From Fulvimonas soli (GTDB lineage Bacteria; Pseudomonadota; Gammaproteobacteria; Xanthomonadales; Rhodanobacteraceae): a stretch of 64,000 nt of DNA. The stretch's first letter is position 1, and every line of letters begins with the position of its first letter. Below, one piece after another: positions 5,645-20,347 of the stretch. The DNA lies in NCBI RefSeq assembly GCF_003148905.1, contig NZ_QGHC01000005.1:186001-250000 (forward strand), written 5' to 3'. Made by a program: the position numbers and the translations under genes. The notes beneath the pieces are model-generated. The model was not told where the DNA came from, searched no databases, and saw only the letters and a list, made by a program, of their open reading frames with translations.

Positions 5645-6566
5645 GTGAGCGCGTCGCTCGCCATGCTGGCCGCGCTGCTGCTCGACGCTTGGCTGGGCGA
5701 GCCGCGGCGCGCGCATCCGCTGGTGGCGTTCGGACGGCTGGCCGTCCGAATCGAACGCCGTGGCTGGCGCGACCGGCGCGCCGCCGGCCTGCGGGCCTGG
5801 GCGCTGGCGGTGGCGCCGCCGGTGCTGGCGGCCTGGCTGCTGGCCCGGATGCTCGGCGCCGCGTCGCCGTGGCTGGGCTTCGCCTTCGACGCCGGCGTGC
5901 TGTACCTCGCCGTCGGCCTGCGGAGCCTCGGCGCGCACGCGCGGCCGGTGGCGGCGGCGCTGGAGGCGGGCGAGCTGGACGCCGCGCGCGCCGCGGTGGG
6001 CCGCATGGTGAGCCGCGACACCGCCGCATTGAGCGAGCGCCAGGTGGCCGCCGCCGCCACCGAGTCGGTGCTGGAGAACGGCAACGACGCGGTGTTCGGC
6101 GCGCTGTTCTGGTTCGCCGTGCTGGGCGCGCCGGGCGCGGTGCTGTACCGGCTGGCGAACACGCTGGACGCGATGTGGGGCTACCGCACGCCGCGCTACG
6201 CGCGCTTCGGCTGGGCCGCCGCGCGCCTGGACGACGCGCTCAACTGGCTGCCGGCGCGGCTGGCCGCCTTCACCTACGCGCTGTGCGGCCGCTGCGGGCG
6301 CGCGCTGCGCTGCTGGCGCGCGCAGGCGCCGCAGTGGGACAGCCCCAACGCCGGCCCGGTGATGGCCGCCGGTGCCGGCGCGCTGGGCGTGGAATTGGGC
6401 GGCGCCGCGCCGTATCACGGCGCGTGGGAGGAACGGCCCGCGCTGGGCGAGGGCGCCGCGCCGGACGCGGGCGCGATCCGCCGCGCGCTGCGGCTGGTGC
6501 GCCGCGGCGTGGCGCTGTGGCTCGCGGCGGCGCTGCTGCTGGGCCTGGCCCGCTGGAGCGCCGCGC

Positions 6567-6574
<8 letters not shown>
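5645..6574 (+). CDS. cbiB: Adenosylcobinamide-phosphate synthase CbiB (CobD of aerobic pathway)
   Basis: Integral membrane enzyme that attaches the aminopropanol (phosphate) arm to adenosylcobyric acid. The 309-residue protein carries the family signatures [10 protein letters not shown] near the N-terminus, [14 protein letters not shown] near residue 140 and [18 protein letters not shown]. The GTG at 5645 gives a full-length protein; an ATG six codons later (5663) is possible. Its 3' end overlaps the start of the following aminotransferase gene by 8 bp, so the two are translationally coupled. Confidence 0.94.
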
Positions 6575-9166
<2,592 letters not shown>

Positions 9167-9179
<13 letters not shown>

Positions 9180-9688
9180 TCCTCGGCGGCGCCCGTTCCG
9201 GCAAGAGCGCGCTGGCCGAGCGGCTGGCGCGCGAGAGCGGGCGCGAGGTGGTCTACCTGGCCACCGCGCAGGCGGGCGACGGCGAAATGGCCGCGCGCAT
9301 CGCCCACCACCGCGCGCGGCGGCCCGCGCACTGGCTGTGCGTGGAGGAGCCGCTGGCGCTGGCCGCCGCGCTGCGCGCGCAGGCGCGCGCCGACCGCTTC
9401 GTGCTGGTCGACTGCCTCACGCTGTGGCTGTCCAACCTGCTCGGCGACGCCGACCCGCGGCGCTTCGGGGCCGAACGCGCCGCGCTGCTCGACGCGCTGC
9501 CCGCACTGCCCGGCGAGATCGCGCTGGTCGGCAACGAGGTCGGCCTCGGCGTGGTGCCGCTGGGCGAGCTCAGCCGCCGCTTCGTCGACGAGGCCGGCCG
9601 CCTGCACCAATCCCTGGCCGCGGCGTGCGAGCGCGTGCTGTTCGTCGCCGCCGGCCTGCCCCTTGCCCTGAAAGGAACCCTGCCATGA
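9167..9688 (+). CDS. cobU: Adenosylcobinamide kinase / adenosylcobinamide-phosphate guanylyltransferase
   Basis: Bifunctional enzyme that phosphorylates adenosylcobinamide and activates it as the GDP ester for CobS. The 173-residue protein has the P-loop GGARSGKS at residues 7-14, a conserved histidine in IAHHRARRP (about 45) and the motif [11 protein letters not shown]. The start ATG lies inside the end of the preceding cobQ frame (13-bp overlap), and its stop overlaps the cobT start as ATGA, showing tight coupling. Confidence 0.95.
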
Positions 9689-10758
9689 ACACCGACTGGC
9701 TTGCCGCGCCGTGTCCGTCCCCCGATGCCGCCAGCGCCGACGCGGCCCGCGCCCGCCAGGCGCAATTGACCAAGCCACCCGGCTCGCTGGGCGCGCTGGA
9801 GGAGGTCGCGGTGCAGCTGGCCGCGCTGCAGCGCGCGCCGCGGCCGGCGGTGGAGCGCGTGTGGATCAGCGTGTTCGCCGGCGACCACGGCGTGGCGGAG
9901 GAGGGCGTGTCGGCCTTCCCGCAGGCGGTCACCGGCGAGATGGTGCGCAACTTCGCCTCGGGCGGCGCGGCGATCAGCGTGCTGGCGCGCGAGCTGGGCG
10001 CCACGCTGGAGGTGGTGAACCTCGGCACCGTCAACGACCCGGGCGAGATCCCCGGCGTGCGCCGCGCCGTCGTGGCGCCGTGCACCGCCAACTTCTGCCG
10101 CGCGCCGGCGATGACGGAAGCGCAGTTCGCCGCCGCGCTGGAGGCCGGCGCGGCCAGCGCGCGCGCGGCGCGGGCGGCCGGCGCGCAGCTGTTCGTCGGC
10201 GGCGAGATGGGCATCGCCAACACCACCGCGGCGGCCGCGCTGGCCTGCGCGCTGCTCGACGCCGCGCCGGCGGCGCTGACCGGCGCGGGCACCGGCCTCG
10301 ACGCGGCGGGCGTCGTGCACAAGGCGGCGGTGATCGCCCGCGCGCTGGCGCTGCACGCCGAGGCGCGCGAGCCGCGCGAGCAGCTGCGCCGCCTCGGCGG
10401 CTTCGAGATCGCCGCGCTGGCCGGTGCCTACATTGCCGCCGCGCAGGCCGGGCTGCCGGTGCTGGTGGACGGCTTCATCACCACCGCGGCCGCGCTGGCG
10501 GCGGCGCGGATCAACCCGGGCGTGCGCGGCTGGCTGCTGTTCGCGCACCGCTCGCACGAGCGCGGCCACGCCGCGCTGCTGCGCGCGCTCGACGCCGCGC
10601 CGCTGCTCGATCTCGGGCTGCGCCTGGGCGAGGCCAGCGGCGCGGCCGCCGCGGTGCCGCTGCTGCGGCTGGCCTGCGCGCTGCACGGCGGCATGGCCAC
10701 CTTCGCGCAGGCCGGCGTGTCGGGCGCGGCGGACGACGCGCGGGGCCACGCGGCGTGA
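9685..10758 (+). CDS. cobT: Nicotinate-nucleotide--dimethylbenzimidazole phosphoribosyltransferase
   Basis: Makes alpha-ribazole 5'-phosphate from nicotinate mononucleotide and a lower-ligand base, supplying the nucleotide loop. The 357-residue protein shows the family motifs [44 protein letters not shown] and [14 protein letters not shown]. The ATG is preceded by AAAGGAA and overlaps the cobU stop. No gene for 5,6-dimethylbenzimidazole synthesis is seen nearby, so the base may come from elsewhere in the genome or outside the cell. Confidence 0.96.
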
Positions 10759-11387
10759 GCGCCGCCGCGCGACTCGAACTGCTGCGCCACGGCGACACCG
10801 GCCAGCGCAGCTACCGCGGCCAGCTCGACGATCCGCTGAGCGCGCTGGGCTGGGCGCAGCTGCGCGCGGCGGCGGCAGGGCGCGCATGGGACCGCATCGT
10901 GTCCTCGACCCTGCGGCGCTGCGCCGCCTTCGCGCAGGAGCTGGCGCAGGCGCGCGGGCTGCCGCTGCGGCTGGACGCGCGCCTGGCCGAGTACCACTTC
11001 GGCGACTGGCAGGGCGTGCCGATCGAGACGCTGGCCGCGCGCGACGGCGAGGCGCTGGCGCGCTTCTGGGCCGACCCGGTGCGCCATCCGCCGCCGGGCG
11101 CGGAAAGCTTCGCGGCGTTCCGCGCGCGCCTGTGCGCCGCGCTGGACGAGGCCGCGCGCGCGGCCGCCGGCGCGCGCGTGCTGGTGCTCACCCACGGCGG
11201 CGCGATCCGCCTGCTGCGCTGCCTGGTCGAGGGGCGCGACTACGGCGACATGGCCGGCATCGAAGTGCCGCATGCCTCGCTGCATCCGCTGCCGTGGCCG
11301 CCGGTGGGGATGGCCCCCGTGGAAGGAGTCTCTGGGGGAGCGGCCGCTCCCACCGAGGTCGTTCCCGCAGGGCAGGCACCGCATTGA
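10755..11387 (+). CDS. cobC: Alpha-ribazole-phosphatase-type histidine phosphatase (CobC)
   Basis: Histidine phosphatase superfamily protein of 210 residues with the catalytic LLRHGDTGQ near the N-terminus and the second histidine in [12 protein letters not shown]. In B12 assembly such an enzyme removes the phosphate from alpha-ribazole 5'-phosphate or from the cobamide phosphate. The GTG start overlaps the cobT stop (GTGA), and the stop overlaps the cobS start. The last 25-30 codons (from [15 protein letters not shown]) come from a decayed copy of the GGAGCGGCC repeat found elsewhere in the window, so the C-terminal tail is probably not part of the ancestral enzyme. Confidence 0.88.
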
Positions 11388-12106
11388 TGAACGCCCTGCT
11401 CGCCGCGCTCGCCTTCCTCACCCGGCTGCCGCTGCCGGCGCGGCCGTTCGACGCGCGCGCGCAGGCCGCCTCGCTGGCCTGGTACCCGGCGGTGGGCGCG
11501 CTGCTCGGCGCGCTGCTGTGGCTGCTCGCCCTGCTGCTGCACGCCTGGCCGCCGCTGCTGGCGGCGGCCGTGCTGCTGGCCGCCTGGGTGGCGCTGACCG
11601 GCGCGCTGCACCTGGACGGCCTGGCCGACAGCGCCGACGCCTGGGTCGGCGGGCTGGGCGACCGCGAGCGCACGCTGGCGATCATGAAGGACCCGCGCAG
11701 CGGCCCGGCCGGGGTGACTGCCGTGGTGCTGGTACTGCTGCTGAAGTTCGCCGCGCTGGCGAGCCTGCCGCATCCCGGGCCGGCCCTGCTGCTGGCGCCG
11801 CTGCTGGCCCGCGCCGCGCTCGCGCTGGCCTTCCTCGCCACGCCCTACGCCCGCGCCGGCGGGCTGGGCGCGGCGCTGGCGCAGGCGCCGCGCGGCGCCT
11901 GCGCGCTCGGCGTCGCGCTCGCCGCCGCCGTGGCGCTGGCCTGCGGCTGGCGCGGCGCGCTGGCGCTGGCCGTGACGGCGGGCGGCTTCGTCGCCTGGCG
12001 GCAGGCCTGCCTGCGCCGCCTGGGCGGCTGCACCGGCGACACCTGCGGCGCGCTGGCCGAGCTGTCCGAGACGCTGGTGCTGGCGGCGCTGGCCGCGGCC
12101 GGCTGA
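11387..12106 (+). CDS. cobS: Adenosylcobinamide-GDP ribazoletransferase (cobalamin synthase)
   Basis: Integral membrane enzyme joining adenosylcobinamide-GDP with alpha-ribazole (phosphate), the last joining step of the pathway. The 239-residue protein has many hydrophobic helices, the N-terminal FLTRLPLPA and the catalytic region ALHLDGLADSADAWVGG with KDPRSGPAG. The C-terminal GGCTGDTCGALAELSE is also typical. It is the last gene of the B12 operon; the next gene belongs to another unit after 232 bp. Confidence 0.95.
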   Translation: MNALLAALAFLTRLPLPARPFDARAQAASLAWYPAVGALLGALLWLLALLLHAWPPLLAAAVLLAAWVALTGALHLDGLADSADAWVGGLGDRERTLAIMKDPRSGPAGVTAVVLVLLLKFAALASLPHPGPALLLAPLLARAALALAFLATPYARAGGLGAALAQAPRGACALGVALAAAVALACGWRGALALAVTAGGFVAWRQACLRRLGGCTGDTCGALAELSETLVLAALAAAG

Positions 12107-12215: not shown

Positions 12216-12249
12216 GGGCATTTCAATTTTCGCCGCCCCGCACGTCATG
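12216..12249 (+). promoter_or_regulatory. Putative ECF-sigma promoter upstream of the sigma gene
   Basis: GGGCATTTCAA, a 16-nt spacer, then CGTCATGG. The same arrangement with the same spacer precedes the VirK gene on the other strand (17678-17644). A -10 box with CGTC and a -35 box about 16 nt upstream fit the iron-type ECF promoter pattern. The sigma start codon lies 93 nt downstream. The rest of 12107-12338 holds no gene that I see. Confidence 0.55.
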
Positions 12250-12338
12250 GTCTGCAACCGGCAACGCATGCGGGCGATCCGCGCCCGCGACGCCGGGATG
12301 CACCATGACTCGACGACCCCGCAGATACCCTGGACAGC

Positions 12339-12893
12339 ATGGAAGCCCCCGACGGCAGCGATGAAGCGGCAGGCGAAGGCAGCTGGCTCGACCACGCCGG
12401 CCGGGTCGCCGCGCTGTACCGCGAGCACCACGGCGCGCTGGTCGCGCTGCTGCAGTGCCGGCTGAACTCGCGCGCCGACGCGCAGGAGATCGCGCAGGAG
12501 GTGTACGTGCGGCTGCTGGCGATGGACCACATGGACCACATCGATTCGCCCAGGGCCTTCCTGTTCCGGATGGCGACCAACCTGTCGGTGGACTACCTGC
12601 GCAAGCGCGCGGTGCGCGCCGGCCTGCCGCCCGAGCCGGAGGAGGGCGACTGGGCCTCCGCGCCGCTGCCGGAGCAGCACGCCTGGGCGGTGCAGCAGTG
12701 GCGGAAGGTGCAGGCGGCGCTGCGCGAGCTGCCCGCCAAGACCAGCCGCGCCTTCGTGCTGCACGTGGTCGAGGGCCGCGACTTCGCCGCGATCGCGCGC
12801 GACATGAGGCTCAGCGAGCGCATGGTGCGCTACCACGTCAGCAACGCCCTGGCCCACTGCCGGGAGCGCTGCTTCGCACCGGAGATGCCGTGA
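12339..12893 (+). CDS. ECF sigma factor, FecI-like
   Basis: A 184-residue RNA polymerase sigma-70 factor of the extracytoplasmic function class. Region 2 is seen in DAQEIAQEVYVRLL and PRAFLFRMATNLSVDYLRKR, region 4 in ALRELPAKTSRAFVLHVVEG and FAAIARDMRLSERMVRYHV. The stop overlaps the start of a FecR-like gene (TGATG), and a TonB-dependent receptor with a signalling domain follows. This three-gene order is that of cell-surface signalling systems for iron carriers such as Fec; the actual inducer is unknown. An ECF-type promoter motif precedes it, suggesting autoregulation. Confidence 0.92.
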   Translation: MEAPDGSDEAAGEGSWLDHAGRVAALYREHHGALVALLQCRLNSRADAQEIAQEVYVRLLAMDHMDHIDSPRAFLFRMATNLSVDYLRKRAVRAGLPPEPEEGDWASAPLPEQHAWAVQQWRKVQAALRELPAKTSRAFVLHVVEGRDFAAIARDMRLSERMVRYHVSNALAHCRERCFAPEMP

Positions 12894-13864
12894 TGGATAC
12901 CCCTGGATCGGACGAGGCGATCGCGCGCGCCGCCGCGGACTGGTGGACGCGCCTGCGCGAGCCGGAGCCGCCGGCGCAGACGCTGGCGCGCTGGCAGGCG
13001 TGGCTGGACGCGGACCCGCGCCACGCGCAGGCCTTCGAGCAGCTCAACGCGCTGGGCGAGCTGCTGCGGACCGCGCCCGCGCCGCGCCGGCGCGAGCTGC
13101 TGGAGGAGTTCGCGCCGCGCGCCGCGCGCGCGCGGCGCTGGCCATACGCGCTGGCCGCGGCGGCGGCGCTCGTGCTGGCCCTGCTGGGCTGGTGGGGCGG
13201 CTGGAGCGGCGCCGGCCGCCAGGCGGCGCCGCAGCGCTACGCCAGCGCGGTGGGCGAGAACCGCGACATCCGCCTGCCGGACGGCACCGCCGTCGCGCTG
13301 GGCGCGGCCTCCGCGCTGACCGCCCGCTACGGCGACGCGCGGCGCGACGTCGAGCTGGCCGCCGGCGAGGCCTACTTCGCGGTGGCCCACGAGGCGCGCC
13401 CGTTCGTGGTGGACGCCGGCCCGCTGCGCATCGAGGACCTGGGCACCGCCTTCAACGTGCGCCGTACCGGCCAGCGCGTCGCGGTGGCGGTGACCGAGGG
13501 GCGGGTGCGCCTGTCGCCCGCCGGCGCGGCCGGGCGGCTCGAGCTGGCGGCCGGCCAGCAGGCCGAGTACGACCCGCGCAGCGGCGCGCTCAGCGTGTCG
13601 CCGCTGCCGGCCGGGCATGCCGCCGCCTGGCGCGAGCACCGGCTGGAGTTCGTCAACGAGCCGCTGGCCGCGGTGATCGCCAACGTCAACCGCTACAGCC
13701 GCCGTCCGGTGCAGCTGGCCGACCCGCGCCTGGGCGAGCTGATGTTCACCGGGACGGTGAACACCACTACCATCGACAGCTGGATCGGCGCGCTGCCGCA
13801 CGTGTTCCCCGTGCAGGTGAGCAGCTTCGCCGACCACGTGGTGCTTTCGAGCGCCGAACACTGA
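12893..13864 (+). CDS. FecR-family anti-sigma / sigma regulator
   Basis: A 323-residue inner-membrane regulator. The N-terminal cytoplasmic part (ADWWTRLREPE, LARWQAWLDADPRHAQAFEQ) matches the DUF4880 anti-sigma domain, a single membrane helix lies at about residues 83-102, and the periplasmic FecR domain follows (IRLPDGTAVALGAASAL, VELAAGEAYFAVAH, FNVRRTG). The C-terminal segment NEPLAAVIANVNRYS resembles the domain that contacts the receptor signalling domain. Translation is coupled to the sigma factor by overlapping codons. Confidence 0.92.
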   Translation: MDTPGSDEAIARAAADWWTRLREPEPPAQTLARWQAWLDADPRHAQAFEQLNALGELLRTAPAPRRRELLEEFAPRAARARRWPYALAAAAALVLALLGWWGGWSGAGRQAAPQRYASAVGENRDIRLPDGTAVALGAASALTARYGDARRDVELAAGEAYFAVAHEARPFVVDAGPLRIEDLGTAFNVRRTGQRVAVAVTEGRVRLSPAGAAGRLELAAGQQAEYDPRSGALSVSPLPAGHAAAWREHRLEFVNEPLAAVIANVNRYSRRPVQLADPRLGELMFTGTVNTTTIDSWIGALPHVFPVQVSSFADHVVLSSAEH

Positions 13865-13955
13865 CGACCGCGCGGGCGGTCCGCGATTCGGGGCAGGGCG
13901 GTATGGCGGGTGGCTACGGGCGCCGCGGCGGGCGCGCGGCGATGAAGCAGGGCCG

Positions 13956-16391
13956 GTGCGGGCCGCGCGCGGCGCGATGACGGCGCGCGGCGTGCTCGCC
14001 GGCGCGGGCCTGGCGCTCGCGCTGGCGCTCGCCGGCCCGCGCGCGGCCGGGGCCCGCGCCGGCGCGCCGCCCCTGCTGGAGGCGCAGGCCCGCCTGGACA
14101 TCCCCGCCCAGCCGCTCGCCACCGCGCTGATGGCGCTGGGCCGGCAGGCCGACGTGCAGATCCTCACCGCCAGCGCCGCGGTGGCGGGGCAGCGCAGCCC
14201 CGGCGCGGCCGGCACGCTGACCGTGCGGGCCGCGCTGGCGCGGCTGCTGGACGGCACCGGGCTGGACTACGAGGTGATCGGCGCGCGCACCGTGGTGGTG
14301 CGCCAGCGCGCCTTCGCGCCGGCGGCCTCGTTCGAGAGCCGCCTGAGCGGGGCCAAGCCCAGCGTGCCGATCGTCAGCGCGCTGGACACCATCCGCGTCT
14401 CCGGCGTGGCGCTGGGCGATGCCGGCTTCAAGGCCGACGGCACCCGTGCCGCCACGCGCACCGACACCGACCTGGCCGACCTGCCGCAGTCGGTCAGCGT
14501 GGTCACCCGCGACCTGATGGACTCGCAGCAGGCCTTCGAGGTGGCCGACGTGGTGCGCCACGTGGCGGGCGTGGACTACGTCGACGGCTTCGGCGGCCCG
14601 CCGCTGTTCCGCATCCGCGGCTTCAACGCCGGCAACGGCATGACCGACGGCATGCCCAACGGCGTGGCGCGCGTGGAGGACCTGCCGCCGCTGATCGGCA
14701 TCGAGCGCGTGGAGGTGCTCAAGGGGCCCGAGGCGATCCTCGGCGAGGCGTCGGTCGACAACAACTTCGGCGGCTCGGTGAACATCGTGATGAAGCGCCC
14801 GCAGGCCGAGCCGGTGCGGCAGCTGGCGTTCTCCGCCGGGCGCTACGACGGCACGCGGCTGGGCTTCGACTTCGCCGGGCCGCTGGACGCGCAGCGGCGC
14901 CTCAGCTACCGCCTGGTCGCCGCCGGCAACTACGCCGACCGCACGGCGCAGGGCTACCGCGGGCAGCGCAGCGGCTACCTGGCGCCGTCGCTCGCCTGGC
15001 AGGGCGAGGCCGCGCGCCTGCTGCTGGGCGCGGAGTACGTCAACAACCGCGTGCCGGTGCCCGACCACACCGTGCTGCTCGGCGACTCGCTGGCGCTGTC
15101 CTCGCCGTTCGGCGTGCTGCCCGGCAACGCGGGCGACCACGCGCTGTTCCGCACCGCGCGCGGCTACTACCTGGCCGAGTGGGCGCCGGCCGGCGACTGG
15201 AGCCTGCGCAGCCGCGGCCAGTACGTGCGCCAGCGCGAGAGCGGCCAGGCCTGGGCGTTCGCCAACGCCCAGCGCTCCGGCGACGCCGACGCGCTGGCGC
15301 GGACCTACCGCTATTCGGATGCGTTCTACACGCTGCAGAACGAGCTGGCCGGCCGCATCGAGCAGGGCCCGCTGACGCACAACCTGCTGCTGGGCTTCGA
15401 CTACGCGCGCACCCACGCGGGCAGCGGCGCCGGCCCCGACGCCGTCACGGTGAGCGAGCCGCACGCCTTCAACCTGCTGGCCGGCGGCGCGCTGCCCTCG
15501 GCGCGCTCGCCGGAGCTGTCGGTGGACCTGGTGCGCCCGCTGGGCGGCGCCTGGTCCACCGACCGCGGCCTGTTCCTGCAGGACCAGCTCGCGGTGGGCG
15601 AGTCGTGGGACGTGCTGGCGGCGCTGCGGCGCACCACCTACACGCTGGCCAGCCGCGGCGCGGACGCCGCGCCGACGCAGCGGCGCTCGATCTGGATTCC
15701 GCGGCTGGGCGTGGTCTACAAGGCGACGCCGGCGCTGGCGCTGTACGCCTCCAGCACCACCGGCTTCCAGGCCGACTCGCTGCTGGGCGAGGACGGCCGG
15801 CCGCTGCCGCCGTCGGTGTCGCGGCAGGTCGAGGCCGGCGCCCGGCTCGACCTGTTCGAGCGGCGCGCGCGGCTGACCGCGGCCTGGTACCGCATCCGGC
15901 TCGACCACAGCGTGGACCTGGTCTCGCCCGACCCGCCGTACTTCGCCGTGCCCGGCCCGGGCCAGCTCAACCGCGGCATGGAGCTGGAGTTCGAGGGCCA
16001 GCCGCTGCCCGGCCTGGACCTCTCGGCCAGCTACACCGGCGCGAGCATCCGCAACCGCGACGGCAGCCGGCCGACCGCCGCGCCGCGCCGCCAGTTCAAC
16101 CTCTGGGCCAGCTACCGCTTCCAGCGCCCGGCGCTGCAGGCGTGGGGCGTGGCCGGCGGCGTGTTCGCGCGCAGCCGCAGCCTGGGCCGCACCGAGGACG
16201 GCGCGTACTTCGACATGCCGGGCCAGGCCAGCGTGGAGGCCAACGTCGGCTACTACGCCGACCGCTGGCGGCTGACCCTGGGCGCGAAGAACCTGTTCGC
16301 GCGCCGGCTCTACGCGGTGGACGCCGAGCAGTCCTTCGTGCCGCTGCGCGAGGGGCGGGTGGTGCTGCTCAGCGGGACCTGGGATTTCTGA
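13956..16391 (+). CDS. TonB-dependent receptor with N-terminal signalling (STN) domain, FecA-like
   Basis: Outer-membrane transducer of 811 residues. After the signal peptide comes an STN domain (DIPAQPLATALMALGRQADV through LDYEVIGARTVVVRQ, about residues 48-115), used to signal to the FecR protein encoded just upstream; then the plug (LPQSVSVVTRDLMDSQQ, RIRGFNAGNGMTDGMPNG, VEVLKGPEAILGEAS) and a barrel ending in LSGTWDF. The plug motifs are those of siderophore receptors. The GTG at 13956 or the ATG at 13977 may be the true start; neither has a strong ribosome site. Ferric-siderophore uptake is the usual role; the ligand is not predictable. Confidence 0.9.
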   Translation: MRAARGAMTARGVLAGAGLALALALAGPRAAGARAGAPPLLEAQARLDIPAQPLATALMALGRQADVQILTASAAVAGQRSPGAAGTLTVRAALARLLDGTGLDYEVIGARTVVVRQRAFAPAASFESRLSGAKPSVPIVSALDTIRVSGVALGDAGFKADGTRAATRTDTDLADLPQSVSVVTRDLMDSQQAFEVADVVRHVAGVDYVDGFGGPPLFRIRGFNAGNGMTDGMPNGVARVEDLPPLIGIERVEVLKGPEAILGEASVDNNFGGSVNIVMKRPQAEPVRQLAFSAGRYDGTRLGFDFAGPLDAQRRLSYRLVAAGNYADRTAQGYRGQRSGYLAPSLAWQGEAARLLLGAEYVNNRVPVPDHTVLLGDSLALSSPFGVLPGNAGDHALFRTARGYYLAEWAPAGDWSLRSRGQYVRQRESGQAWAFANAQRSGDADALARTYRYSDAFYTLQNELAGRIEQGPLTHNLLLGFDYARTHAGSGAGPDAVTVSEPHAFNLLAGGALPSARSPELSVDLVRPLGGAWSTDRGLFLQDQLAVGESWDVLAALRRTTYTLASRGADAAPTQRRSIWIPRLGVVYKATPALALYASSTTGFQADSLLGEDGRPLPPSVSRQVEAGARLDLFERRARLTAAWYRIRLDHSVDLVSPDPPYFAVPGPGQLNRGMELEFEGQPLPGLDLSASYTGASIRNRDGSRPTAAPRRQFNLWASYRFQRPALQAWGVAGGVFARSRSLGRTEDGAYFDMPGQASVEANVGYYADRWRLTLGAKNLFARRLYAVDAEQSFVPLREGRVVLLSGTWDF

Positions 16392-16401
16392 GCGCGTCCG
16401 G

Positions 16402-16637
16402 GAGCCTGTTCAAATCGGGATCGCTGGCGGCCTTGCCTCACGGGCTGATCGCGGCCGGAGGCCGCTTCCACAGGGGCATCGCCAGCCTTGTGGGAGCGGC
16501 CTCCGGCCGCGATGCCTCGACCATCGCCTCAATCCCGCCATGCCGCGCCGTCGCGGACCGGCATCCACCCTTTCGATCCTCCCTGGCCTGTGCGCAGACG
16601 GCTCCCGGCGGGGCACGGGGAACACGCGAACAGGCTC
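16402..16637. repeat. MITE-like 236-bp element with 10-bp terminal inverted repeats
   Basis: GAGCCTGTTC at 16402-16411 and its perfect complement GAACAGGCTC at 16628-16637 bound the whole gap between the TonB receptor and the VirK gene. Inside lies the palindrome D1 (16448-16513), whose arms read ATCGCGGCCGGAGGCCGCTT and the complement. A solo copy of GAACAGGCTC occurs at 50830-50839. No open frame is evident inside. Confidence 0.55.
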
Positions 16638-17615
16638 TTACAGCCCGGCGGCCAGCAGGTTCCCGCCCGCCGCCGGCGCGGCGCGCTGCGGGGCGTCCGC
16701 CGGCGGGGCCTGGCCGCCGGGCCGGTGGCGCGGCGGATCGCGGAAGGCGTCGAGGAAGGCGGCGCAGGCCTCGCGGCGGAAGGCCTCGCGGCGCTGCCGC
16801 ATGGCATGGCGGCTGCGCCGGCCGTCGGCGCAGGGCCGGCGCGGCGGGGCCGGCGGCAGCTCGTAGCAGCCCGCCGCGCCCGGCATGCCGCCCAGTTCCT
16901 TCCAGAAGGCGTCGCTGGCGTCCGGGTGCGCCGCGACGCGCGCATGGTCGGCCACGGCGCGCAGGCGGGCGATGCCGTGGTGCGCGGCCAGCTCGCGCAG
17001 CAGCGACAGCAGCAGCTCCTTCGGCCGCAGCCCGCTGCCCCGGATGAACGCGCGGGTCGCCGCGCCGTCCGTGTGGGGGCCGGCGCCCTGCAGCGCGCCG
17101 ACCAGCAGGCCCTCGTCGCCGGCGAAGGTCAGCACGCAGGAGGCCAGCGTCTCGCGGTCCCCGGTGAGCAGCAGCAGGGCGAGCTCGCCGGCCTCGCCGC
17201 GCAGCGGCTTGCGCAGGTGCAGCCCGACCGGCGCGCAGCCTTCCGGGTACAGCGTGGCGAGGCGCACGTCGCGGCCGCGCAGCACGCGGTCGCGCAGCCG
17301 CGCCGGGAAACGGCGCAGCACGAAGTCGTAGTGCGCGGCGACGATGCGCCGCCGCGCCGCGGCGCCGAAATGGCGCGAGACGTAGGGCCGGTGCCAGCGC
17401 TCGTAGAGCCGCGGGTCGGCGTGCGCCGCCTGGCGCAGCGGCCCGCTGCCGTCCAGGACGCGCAGCCACCGCGTCTGCCGCGGGAACAGCCACAGCCAGC
17501 GCGCCATGTGCCAGGCCAGCCGCCAGCTGCTCTCGCCGGCCACCGGCCGCAGCGCCCAGCGCCGGCGGACCGCGTCCAGCCACAGCGCGCCCGTGGTTCC
17601 CGCCCGTCCGTCCAT
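16638..17615 (-). CDS. VirK/YbjX family protein (DUF535)
   Basis: A 325-residue protein of the DUF535 family (E. coli YbjX, Salmonella/Shigella VirK). Visible motifs are YERWHRPYVSRHFG, HYDFVLRRFP, LLLLTGDRETLASCVLTFAGDEGLLVGALQG and KELLLSLLRELAAHHG. The ATG at 17615 follows GGGGCGG; the frame is open further upstream but that would run through the putative ECF promoter. VirK/YbjX proteins are linked to envelope changes and peptide resistance, but their biochemical role is unknown. It faces the ECF-FecR-TonB receptor genes and shares their promoter motif. Confidence 0.82.
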   Translation of the reverse strand: MDGRAGTTGALWLDAVRRRWALRPVAGESSWRLAWHMARWLWLFPRQTRWLRVLDGSGPLRQAAHADPRLYERWHRPYVSRHFGAAARRRIVAAHYDFVLRRFPARLRDRVLRGRDVRLATLYPEGCAPVGLHLRKPLRGEAGELALLLLTGDRETLASCVLTFAGDEGLLVGALQGAGPHTDGAATRAFIRGSGLRPKELLLSLLRELAAHHGIARLRAVADHARVAAHPDASDAFWKELGGMPGAAGCYELPPAPPRRPCADGRRSRHAMRQRREAFRREACAAFLDAFRDPPRHRPGGQAPPADAPQRAAPAAGGNLLAAGL

Positions 17616-17643
17616 CGATCCGCCCCGTCGTGCCGAATTGCTT

Positions 17644-17678
17644 CCATGACGTGCGGGCGGGCGGATTTTGAAATGGCC
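17644..17678 (-). promoter_or_regulatory. Putative ECF-sigma promoter upstream of VirK gene
   Basis: On the reverse strand GGCCATTTCAA, a 16-nt spacer and CGTCATGG match the motif at 12216-12249 almost base for base, including part of the spacer (CGCCxGCCCGCA-like). The VirK ATG lies 33 nt downstream of the CGTC box. Two matching copies in the same orientation relative to their genes support a shared regulon. Confidence 0.55.
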
Positions 17679-17712: not shown

Positions 17713-20151
17713 TCACCAGCGATAGGCCACCTTGCCGTAGACGTAGGCGCCGTTGTAGCCGAACGGCGAGAACACCGAGTAGGGCAGGGTGCCGTTGTTG
17801 CTGTTGGCGGCGACGTTCTTGTCCGGGTAGGTGTCCAGCGCGTCGTCGGCGCCCAGGGTGAAGCTCCAGCGGTCCACGTTGTAGTTCACCGCCAGGTCGA
17901 GCAGCCACTTCGGGCTGAAGGTCTGGTCCAGCGCGTAGTTGGTGGCGTTGTAGGCGGTGTAGCGGCCGTAGCGGGTCAGCGTGCCGGTGACGCCCCAGCG
18001 GCCCGCGTCGTACTGCTCGCTGAGGATCAGCTTGCTGCGCGGCGTGGTGTCGGCCATCAGGCCCTTGATGTCGCGGCGGTCCAGGCGCTTGAAGCTGACG
18101 CCCAGCGCGTCGAGCACCGCCGGGTTGGGCTTCACCCGGGTGACCTCGTTCTTGTTGTAGTTGGCGCTCAGCGTGGTCTGCAGGGTGCCGGCGTCGCCGA
18201 GGTCGGCCAGGTACGTCGCCACGAAGTCGACGCCGCGCGTGCGCGTGTCGGCGGCGTTGGTGAAGTAGGACACGCCGCTGTAGTTGAGGTTGGACACGCC
18301 GTTGGCGGCCAGGTAGGCCTGCACCGTGGGGCCGGTGGTGGCGATGCTGCTGGACAGCACGATGCGGTTGTCGATCCGGATCTGGTAGGCGTCGACGCTG
18401 AGGGTCAGCGCGGCGGTCGGGCTCCACACCGCGCCCAGGGTGTAGTTGTGCGACTTCTCCGGCTTCAGCGGCTCGGCGCCGAGCAGGCGGGCCACCTGGT
18501 TGTCCACCGGCACCAGGCCGGCGTTGTAGATGCCCGCCGGCAGGCCCAGCGAGTTGCCCTCGCCGTAGTACAGCGAGGACACCGTGGAGTAGTGCTGCTG
18601 GGCCAGCGACGGCGCGCGGAAGCCGGTGGAGGCGCTGGCGCGCAGCGCGAAGCCGTCGGTGAAGTCGAAGCGGCCGGCCAGCGAGCCGGAGGTGGTGTTG
18701 CCGAAGTCGGTGTAGTCCTCGTGGCGCACCGCGGCGGACACGCCGAGGCGGTCGGTGAGGTTGGTCTCCACGTCCAGGTACTCGGCCACGTCGTGGCGCG
18801 ACCAGGAGCCGGCGCTGACCGGCTGCCAGCCGGCGAAGCCCTGCGCGCCGCCGGACACGCCCGAGGTGCCCACGTACCACGAGGCCGGCTCGCCGGCGTG
18901 GATGCCGTAGGTCTGGCGCAGGTACTCGGCGCCGAAGGCCACGGTGACCGGGTTGGGCAGCCAGCCGGGCGAGAACTCCCTGGCCAGGTCGACGTCGAGG
19001 GACTGCTGCGCGGCGTCCAGCACGCCGTCGTCGAAGTTGCGCGGGCTGTCGCCGAAGTCGTTGAGCCAGGCCAGGTTGATGCTGTGGCGGGTCTCGTAGG
19101 AGACGCGGTTGCCGCCGTAGTTGCCGCTCACGTCCCAGCGCCAGCCGCCGGCGGTGCCGCGCAGGCCGAGCACCAGCGAGCGGTCGGTGGAGTCGGCGTT
19201 CTCCAGCGGCAGGTAGCCGTCCGGGTAGATGCCGGCGATCAGCGGGCTGCTGTTGCCGTAGCGGAAGAACGCCGGCGAGGTGCTGTCGCGGTGGCCGAAG
19301 TGGCCGAAGGCATAGAGCTGCACGGCCGGGCCGAAGTCGTACTGCGCGTTGAGCAGCAGGTTGTTGTCGTGCACCGCCGGATCGCCCTCGCGGAAGTTCA
19401 CGCCCAGGCCGCTGTAGGCCGGCCGGGTGTCGGCACCGGCGTGGTTGGTGTAGTCCTGGTTGCCGCTCTGCACGGTGAAGCGCAGCCAGCCCCTGTCGCC
19501 GGCCAGCGGCAGGCCGAAGTTGGCCGAGCCCTGCCACTGGCGGCCGTCGCCGTGGGTGTACTGGCCGCCGGTGAGCTCCACGTCGCCGCCCTCGGCGCCC
19601 TTCTTGAGGATGATGTTGATCACGCCGGCGATGGCGTCCGAGCCGTACTGCGCCGAGGCGCCGTCGCGCAGCACCTCGATGTGGTCGATCGCCGAGACCG
19701 GGATGGTGTTGAGGTCCACCGCCTGCGAGCCGCGGCCCAGCACGCCGTTGGTGAGGATGATCGCGCCGGGGTGCCAGCGCTTGCCGTTCACCAGCACCAG
19801 CACCTGGTCCGGCGACAGGCCGCGCAGCTGCGCGGGGCGCTGCGTGTCGGCGGTGTCGGCGGCGGACGGGCGCGGGAAGGTCAGCGACGGGATGATGCGC
19901 GACAGCGCGGTGGGCAGGTCGTTGGTGCCGGTCTGCTGCAGCACCTTGGCCGAGACCACGTCGATCGGGGTGAGCGAGCTGCTCTCGGTGCGGTTGTCGG
20001 CGCGCGTGCCGGTGACGATCACGGTGCCCAGGTTCTTCGCCTTCTCGGGCGTGGCGGCCTGCTCGTCCTGCGCGTGGGCGAAGGCGGGCGACAGGGCCAG
20101 CAGCGCGGCGGGGAGGAGCGCGCGGCGGATCGGGGGGCGGGCGGGGCTCAT
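17713..20151 (-). CDS. TonB-dependent outer-membrane receptor
   Basis: An 812-residue receptor beginning at an ATG with AAGGAGT seven bases upstream and a clear signal peptide (RRALLPAALLALSPAFAHAQ). The plug domain has LGTVIVTGTRADNR, QLRGLSPDQVLVLVNGKRWH and VLRDGASAQYGSDAIAGVINIILKKG, the form seen in large xanthomonad and caulobacterial receptors; the C-terminal strand ends YGKVAYRW. There is no STN domain, so it does not signal to a sigma factor. Substrate unknown. Two tandem MetJ-box-like palindromes upstream hint at control linked to methionine, but this is inference. Confidence 0.9.
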   Translation of the reverse strand: MSPARPPIRRALLPAALLALSPAFAHAQDEQAATPEKAKNLGTVIVTGTRADNRTESSSLTPIDVVSAKVLQQTGTNDLPTALSRIIPSLTFPRPSAADTADTQRPAQLRGLSPDQVLVLVNGKRWHPGAIILTNGVLGRGSQAVDLNTIPVSAIDHIEVLRDGASAQYGSDAIAGVINIILKKGAEGGDVELTGGQYTHGDGRQWQGSANFGLPLAGDRGWLRFTVQSGNQDYTNHAGADTRPAYSGLGVNFREGDPAVHDNNLLLNAQYDFGPAVQLYAFGHFGHRDSTSPAFFRYGNSSPLIAGIYPDGYLPLENADSTDRSLVLGLRGTAGGWRWDVSGNYGGNRVSYETRHSINLAWLNDFGDSPRNFDDGVLDAAQQSLDVDLAREFSPGWLPNPVTVAFGAEYLRQTYGIHAGEPASWYVGTSGVSGGAQGFAGWQPVSAGSWSRHDVAEYLDVETNLTDRLGVSAAVRHEDYTDFGNTTSGSLAGRFDFTDGFALRASASTGFRAPSLAQQHYSTVSSLYYGEGNSLGLPAGIYNAGLVPVDNQVARLLGAEPLKPEKSHNYTLGAVWSPTAALTLSVDAYQIRIDNRIVLSSSIATTGPTVQAYLAANGVSNLNYSGVSYFTNAADTRTRGVDFVATYLADLGDAGTLQTTLSANYNKNEVTRVKPNPAVLDALGVSFKRLDRRDIKGLMADTTPRSKLILSEQYDAGRWGVTGTLTRYGRYTAYNATNYALDQTFSPKWLLDLAVNYNVDRWSFTLGADDALDTYPDKNVAANSNNGTLPYSVFSPFGYNGAYVYGKVAYRW

Positions 20152-20221
20152 CGGGGGACTCCTTGGAATTATGTTGCGGTGCAATGACGGCAGGCTAGGG
20201 GCTGCCGGCTGGCCGGTCAAT

Positions 20222-20237
20222 AGACGTCTGGACGTCC
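20222..20237. promoter_or_regulatory. Tandem met-box-like palindromes (AGACGTCT + GGACGTCC)
   Basis: Two adjacent 8-bp palindromes lie 71 bp upstream of the receptor gene start (20151, reverse strand). The first equals the MetJ met-box consensus AGACGTCT, and the second differs at its outer bases only. MetJ binds head-to-tail 8-bp boxes. Whether this organism has MetJ is not visible here. Confidence 0.4.
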
Positions 20238-20347
20238 ATCTCGCACATATGCAAATAACCAAAGATCACTGGACGGCGCGGGCGTGCCGCGCCCGTCCGC
20301 CCGCAGGCTACCCCCGGGCGGCGGCGGGTGCCAGTGCGGCCGGCGCG

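Follow-up and report, generated by a model that had tools for sequence, protein, structure and literature searches.

The closest described systems are those of the FecI/FecR/FecA type, such as the ferric citrate system of Escherichia coli and the siderophore systems of Pseudomonas, in which a FecI-like sigma factor, a FecR regulator with DUF4880 and FecR domains and a receptor carrying an STN domain are encoded in this order. FecI-like sigma factors are cited as exceptions to the autoregulation of ECF sigma factors (PMC8103513); fecIR of E. coli is controlled by Fur and not autoregulated, and Serratia HasI is not autoregulated either (PMC9249621). The HemI-HemR-HemAD system of Stenotrophomonas maltophilia, from the same order of bacteria as the organism studied here, is likewise encoded by a FecIRA-like operon, which is repressed by Fur and proved not to regulate itself (PMC12772443); the target of HemI given there is a heme-uptake operon, and DUF535 goes unmentioned in the passages on this system.

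Proteins of the DUF535 (VirK/YbjX) family have been linked to the envelope in enterobacteria, with conflicting accounts of their localisation and of lipid A modification, and the Klebsiella DUF535 gene is activated by PhoP (PMC13109725). In the literature that we searched, we found no link between DUF535 and an ECF sigma factor.

Gene content of the locus and comparison with Fec systems

We analysed a window of 64,000 nucleotides from Fulvimonas soli, and the features of the locus as found therein are given in Table 1. The sigma factor matched the FecI equivalog model (3.9e-22), but its 79 bits were below that model's own cut-off of 260, and it is thus FecI-like and not FecI itself. The gene that had been labelled 'VirK' encodes a DUF535 protein of the same Pfam family as the enterobacterial proteins, the name 'VirK' being ambiguous and uninformative on function; a Xanthomonas campestris 'VirK' that is only named in PMC6085468 was kept out of the evidence. 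Cobalamin-synthesis-like open reading frames (window 6372-12106) extend up to the sigma promoter.

Table 1. Features of the sigma factor-DUF535 locus, in window coordinates
Feature	Position	Strand	Evidence or remarks
Predicted ECF-type promoter, sigma-fecR-receptor operon	12216..12250	+	GGGCATTTCAATTTTCGCCGCCCCGCACGTCATGG; motif found upstream of sigma in 35/35 loci of arrangement A
Subparts of the sigma-operon promoter	-35 side 12219-12226; -10 side 12243-12246	+	-35 side CATTTCAA; -10 side CGTC
FecI-like ECF sigma factor, 184 aa	12339..12893	+	PF04542, PF08281 above cut-off; NCBIfam FecI-like matches
FecR-type regulator, 323 aa	12893..13864	+	PF16220 (DUF4880) and PF04773 (FecR)
TonB-dependent receptor with STN signalling domain, siderophore type	13956..16391	+	PF07660, PF07715, PF00593; TIGR01783; exact start uncertain
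DUF535 (VirK/YbjX) protein, 325 aa	16638..17615	-	PF04393, 116.6 bits, cut-off 27
Predicted ECF-type promoter, DUF535 gene	17644..17678	-	GGCCATTTCAAAATCCGCCCGCCCGCACGTCATGG; motif found upstream of DUF535 in 35/36 loci of arrangement A and 38/41 of B
Second TonB-dependent receptor, no STN domain	17713..20262	-	Domain search; neighbour of DUF535

The locus thus has the genes of a FecI/FecR/FecA system in the same order, but differs in that DUF535 is a predicted constant extra target and in that the motif described below heads the sigma operon and not the receptor gene, which is what is headed at fecA; this position argues against a classical Fec system, not against one that works like it. It differs from E. 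coli Fec also in that autoregulation is predicted and no Fur-like box was found. When the surroundings of both the sigma and the DUF535 promoter were scanned with the Fur consensus of E. coli, the highest-scoring stretch was no better than in shuffled sequence, and by this consensus scan no Fur box was seen as a co-regulator. A link to iron is therefore unproven, leaving unsupported the response to iron limitation envisaged in an earlier reading made from the letters of the window (the sequence-only reading).

Two copies of a predicted promoter motif in the genome

The motif GGNCATTTCAA-N16-CGTCATGG was present at exactly two sites in the 3.77 Mb genome, 5' of the ECF sigma gene and 5' of the DUF535 gene. 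All 18 specified positions and the 16-nt gap were found at both sites, each oriented towards its gene, in agreement with what the sequence-only reading had described. Its coordinates were exact for the DUF535 side (17678-17644), whereas the end given for the sigma side (12249) was one base short of the true end at 12250. When up to three mismatches were allowed, the window contained these two sites only and 100 dinucleotide-preserving shuffles of it contained none; over all 44 contigs of the genome, nothing beyond the two window sites was seen at 0-2 mismatches and one additional site appeared at three. The earlier judgement that such a match is unlikely by chance thus held, and the genome search that had been proposed gave the sigma and DUF535 sites alone within two mismatches.

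The -10-proximal part of the spacer (GCACGTC) was similar in the two copies, and beyond the element the two upstream regions were no longer similar. On the DUF535 side, the copy is located between the stop of the second TonB receptor gene (17713) and the start of DUF535 (17615). Should transcription start 6-9 nt past CGTC, the leaders would be about 85 nt for the sigma gene and about 26 nt for DUF535. Pseudomonas PvdS/FecI-like promoters have the form TAAAT-N16-CGT, with the 16-nt gap and the CGT of the -10 side in common with the motif of the window and with a -35 side differing from the CATTTCAA found here, a likeness that we regard as a lead only.

Relatives of the sigma factor and gene arrangements

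Among 233 Rhodanobacteraceae genomes, a close relative of the sigma factor was found in 100, DUF535 in 94 and both in 87. In a profile search of genome contigs with the sigma alignment, the nearest records were from Fulvimonas, Rhodanobacter, Dyella and Luteibacter, with the nearest sigma relative being that of Fulvimonas sp. R45 (85% identical). From 100 genomic regions, those with the sigma gene were sorted into three arrangements. Arrangement A, that of the window, has sigma-fecR-receptor convergent with DUF535, while B has DUF535-sigma-fecR-receptor all on one strand and C is a sigma locus without DUF535. In several B loci the DUF535 and sigma frames overlap by about 13 bases, provided that the chosen start codons are right. 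Within the family, A was found under six genus labels and B under seven, and some Dyella genomes (G086-G088) carry A and B together, both arrangements having a DUF535 and a motif of their own. Outside it, arrangement B was found in Xanthomonas sp. NCPPB 1128 (L277), where the motif matches at 14/14 positions. A second family of the order includes three genomes in which DUF535 lies immediately 5' of a close sigma gene and is itself preceded by a motif matching at 14/14 positions, and four genomes with more distant sigmas that gave no DUF535 match. Sigma, FecR, receptor or DUF535 genes resembling those of Dyella are also present on contigs labelled Candidatus Eremiobacteraeota (L280, L290), which probably derive from a contaminated or mislabelled bin.

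Conservation of the motif and internal controls

For phylogenetic footprinting, about 100 related loci from Rhodanobacteraceae and Xanthomonas were scored over 450 nt upstream at 14 positions (CATTTCAA, a gap of 15-17 nt and CGTCAT/TT/TA), with at least 12 matches defining a site. Counting loci, which are not independent because the genomes are related and for which kinship was ignored, we found that in arrangement A the motif precedes the sigma gene in 35/35 cases and DUF535 in 35/36, that in B it precedes the leading DUF535 gene in 38/41, and that in C it precedes sigma in 8/14. The gap was 16 nt at every such site, none using the permitted 15 or 17 nt. TTTC and CGTC were invariant among the sites within each group, with information dropping outside the element.

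The controls gave a different picture. The internal sigma gene of arrangement B was preceded by the motif in only 2 of 41 loci, fecR in none of 90 and the STN receptor (TBDT1) in 3 of 88; a motif belonging to the receptor gene alone was also sought and is missing in nearly all loci. None of 40 DUF535 genes far from the sigma gene had the motif (Fisher p=4e-27, relatedness not corrected). The opposite strand gave no sites in A and B and also scored in 5 of 14 segments of C, probably because of divergent targets. This pattern argues that the sigma factor is very probably positively autoregulated and that DUF535 is very probably its most constant second target, and the footprinting with its controls strongly supports the reading of the motif as a promoter and both regulatory predictions of the sequence-only reading.

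Wider distribution of the motif and further candidate targets

Perfect sites with the 16-nt gap were confined to 18 of the 233 genomes, 16 of them with this sigma factor, and in several arrangement-A genomes, including that of the window, the ATTTCAA-N16-CGTCW sites were those of the sigma and DUF535 promoters and no others. In Dyella, the motif was also found shortly upstream of a small open reading frame (about 75-95 aa, with no Pfam match above cut-off) unlinked to the sigma locus. It preceded 17 of 19 loci of this frame at 41% identity or more (two being the same site) and none of nine below 41%. This small conserved frame (motif-bearing in L372-L377, L379, L381-L389 and L398 of Dyella, and first noticed in L012-L015) is thus a candidate third regulon member; it is absent from the genome of the window. 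In Rudaea- and Dokdonella-like genomes (L010, L025-L027, L034) the motif was seen before TonB receptors near a related sigma, and in L034 also before an S51-peptidase (cyanophycinase-like) gene. These small-ORF, TonB-receptor and S51 targets elsewhere suggest that the sigma lineage retains the promoter and partly swaps its targets, DUF535 being the commonest predicted target seen for the lineage.

For the second TonB receptor of the window (17713-20262), membership in the regulon is not supported. An STN-less TonB receptor like it was seen near DUF535 only in L095 and L105, and further off in L096.

The DUF535 protein and its evolution

An AlphaFold2 model of DUF535, made from 22 sequences (pLDDT 85, pTM 0.82), resembles GNAT acyltransferases over approximately residues 89-284. 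The top Foldseek and VIA-align rows were almost all of GNAT fold, with middling scores (best Foldseek E 7e-3, best Z 8.1, about 100 residues), and a DUF535 profile search of PDB sequences gave no match. A conserved R-x-x-x-G-x-R-P-K was located by eye (alignment A1) before a helix at approximately the expected place, in a spacing that is not that of the canonical acyl-CoA-binding signature R/Q-x-x-G-x-G/A. DUF535 is thus possibly a GNAT-like acyltransferase, which the model offers as a lead and not as an assignment.

In a tree of DUF535, the copies from A and those from B fall into distinct groups, each with full support, and unlinked copies are placed in between. The sigmas of A, by contrast, make up a single group inside an assemblage with those of B and part of those of C (backbone poorly resolved, midpoint root). 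These trees fit two recruitments of DUF535, and the two groups look as if they entered the sigma regulon separately; loss of linkage by the unlinked copies would be an alternative. A further-reaching proposal, that DUF535 is a GNAT-fold acyltransferase, was recruited twice independently and acts as the dedicated output enzyme of surface signalling that amplifies itself and does not depend on Fur, we consider speculative and rather doubtful.

Proposed regulation and alternative explanations

We find it highly likely that the locus encodes a system of the FecI/FecR/FecA type, in which the sigma factor activates its own operon and the convergent DUF535 gene through CATTTCAA-N16-CGTC[A/T][T/A]. 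What the DNA shows directly is the gene content and a motif that is conserved at these promoters and lacking in the controls, and from these we infer the reading of the motif by this sigma, the start sites, the flow of the signal and any function of DUF535. A ligand is predicted to bind the STN-bearing TonB receptor, with the signal passing via FecR; FecR signalling would free the sigma factor, and sigma-RNA polymerase would transcribe the promoter of the sigma-FecR-TonB receptor operon, in positive autoregulation, and likewise the convergent DUF535 gene. With both promoters transcribed by the same sigma, receptor, regulator and DUF535 protein would rise together. Speaking against this explanation, the closest counterparts that have been studied, FecI of E. 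coli and HasI of Serratia (PMC9249621) and HemI of S. maltophilia (PMC12772443), have sigma operons that are not autoregulated.

The motif might instead be a promoter for some other ECF sigma factor, which would have both the sigma gene of the locus and DUF535 as its targets. In each genome the sigma searches gave numerous weaker candidates, initially up to 74, which makes the presence of further ECF sigmas likely, and FecI-like sigmas related to one another could have a common specificity. We nevertheless regard this as unlikely, since the motif tracks this sigma lineage through the genomes with perfect sites, and since in several arrangement-A genomes it marks the sigma and DUF535 promoters alone. 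That the element is a transcription-factor operator, a role that long elements conserved with a constant spacer may also have, is highly improbable in view of the CGTC on the -10 side, the fixed gap and the constant position before the first gene and facing it, all typical of ECF promoters, CGT being the ECF -10 box (PMC8103513). A resemblance that arose by chance, or by recent duplication of one of the upstream regions within the locus, with no shared regulation, could account for the part of the spacer that the window sites have in common, but has next to no probability, as the similarity ends at the element borders and dozens of diverged loci, in several genera and in two arrangements, have retained the element.

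Implications

With activation of its own operon by the sigma factor as the preferred explanation, a whole lineage of FecI-like sigma factors is predicted to self-activate, whereas the literature counts such factors among the exceptions to self-activation by ECF sigma factors (PMC8103513), and the precise promoter makes this prediction testable. An autoregulated FecI-like sigma with DUF535 as a constant target would be an unusual departure from known FecI/FecR/FecA systems. DUF535 of the window type would be tied to a FecI-like sigma and not to PhoP as in Klebsiella, and this pairing appears to be kept across many related soil bacteria. The family, long linked to envelope and virulence phenotypes, thereby gains a functional partner that is conserved in bacteria other than pathogens and, from the predicted GNAT-like fold, a structural lead, which together would make the role of DUF535 testable in harmless soil bacteria.
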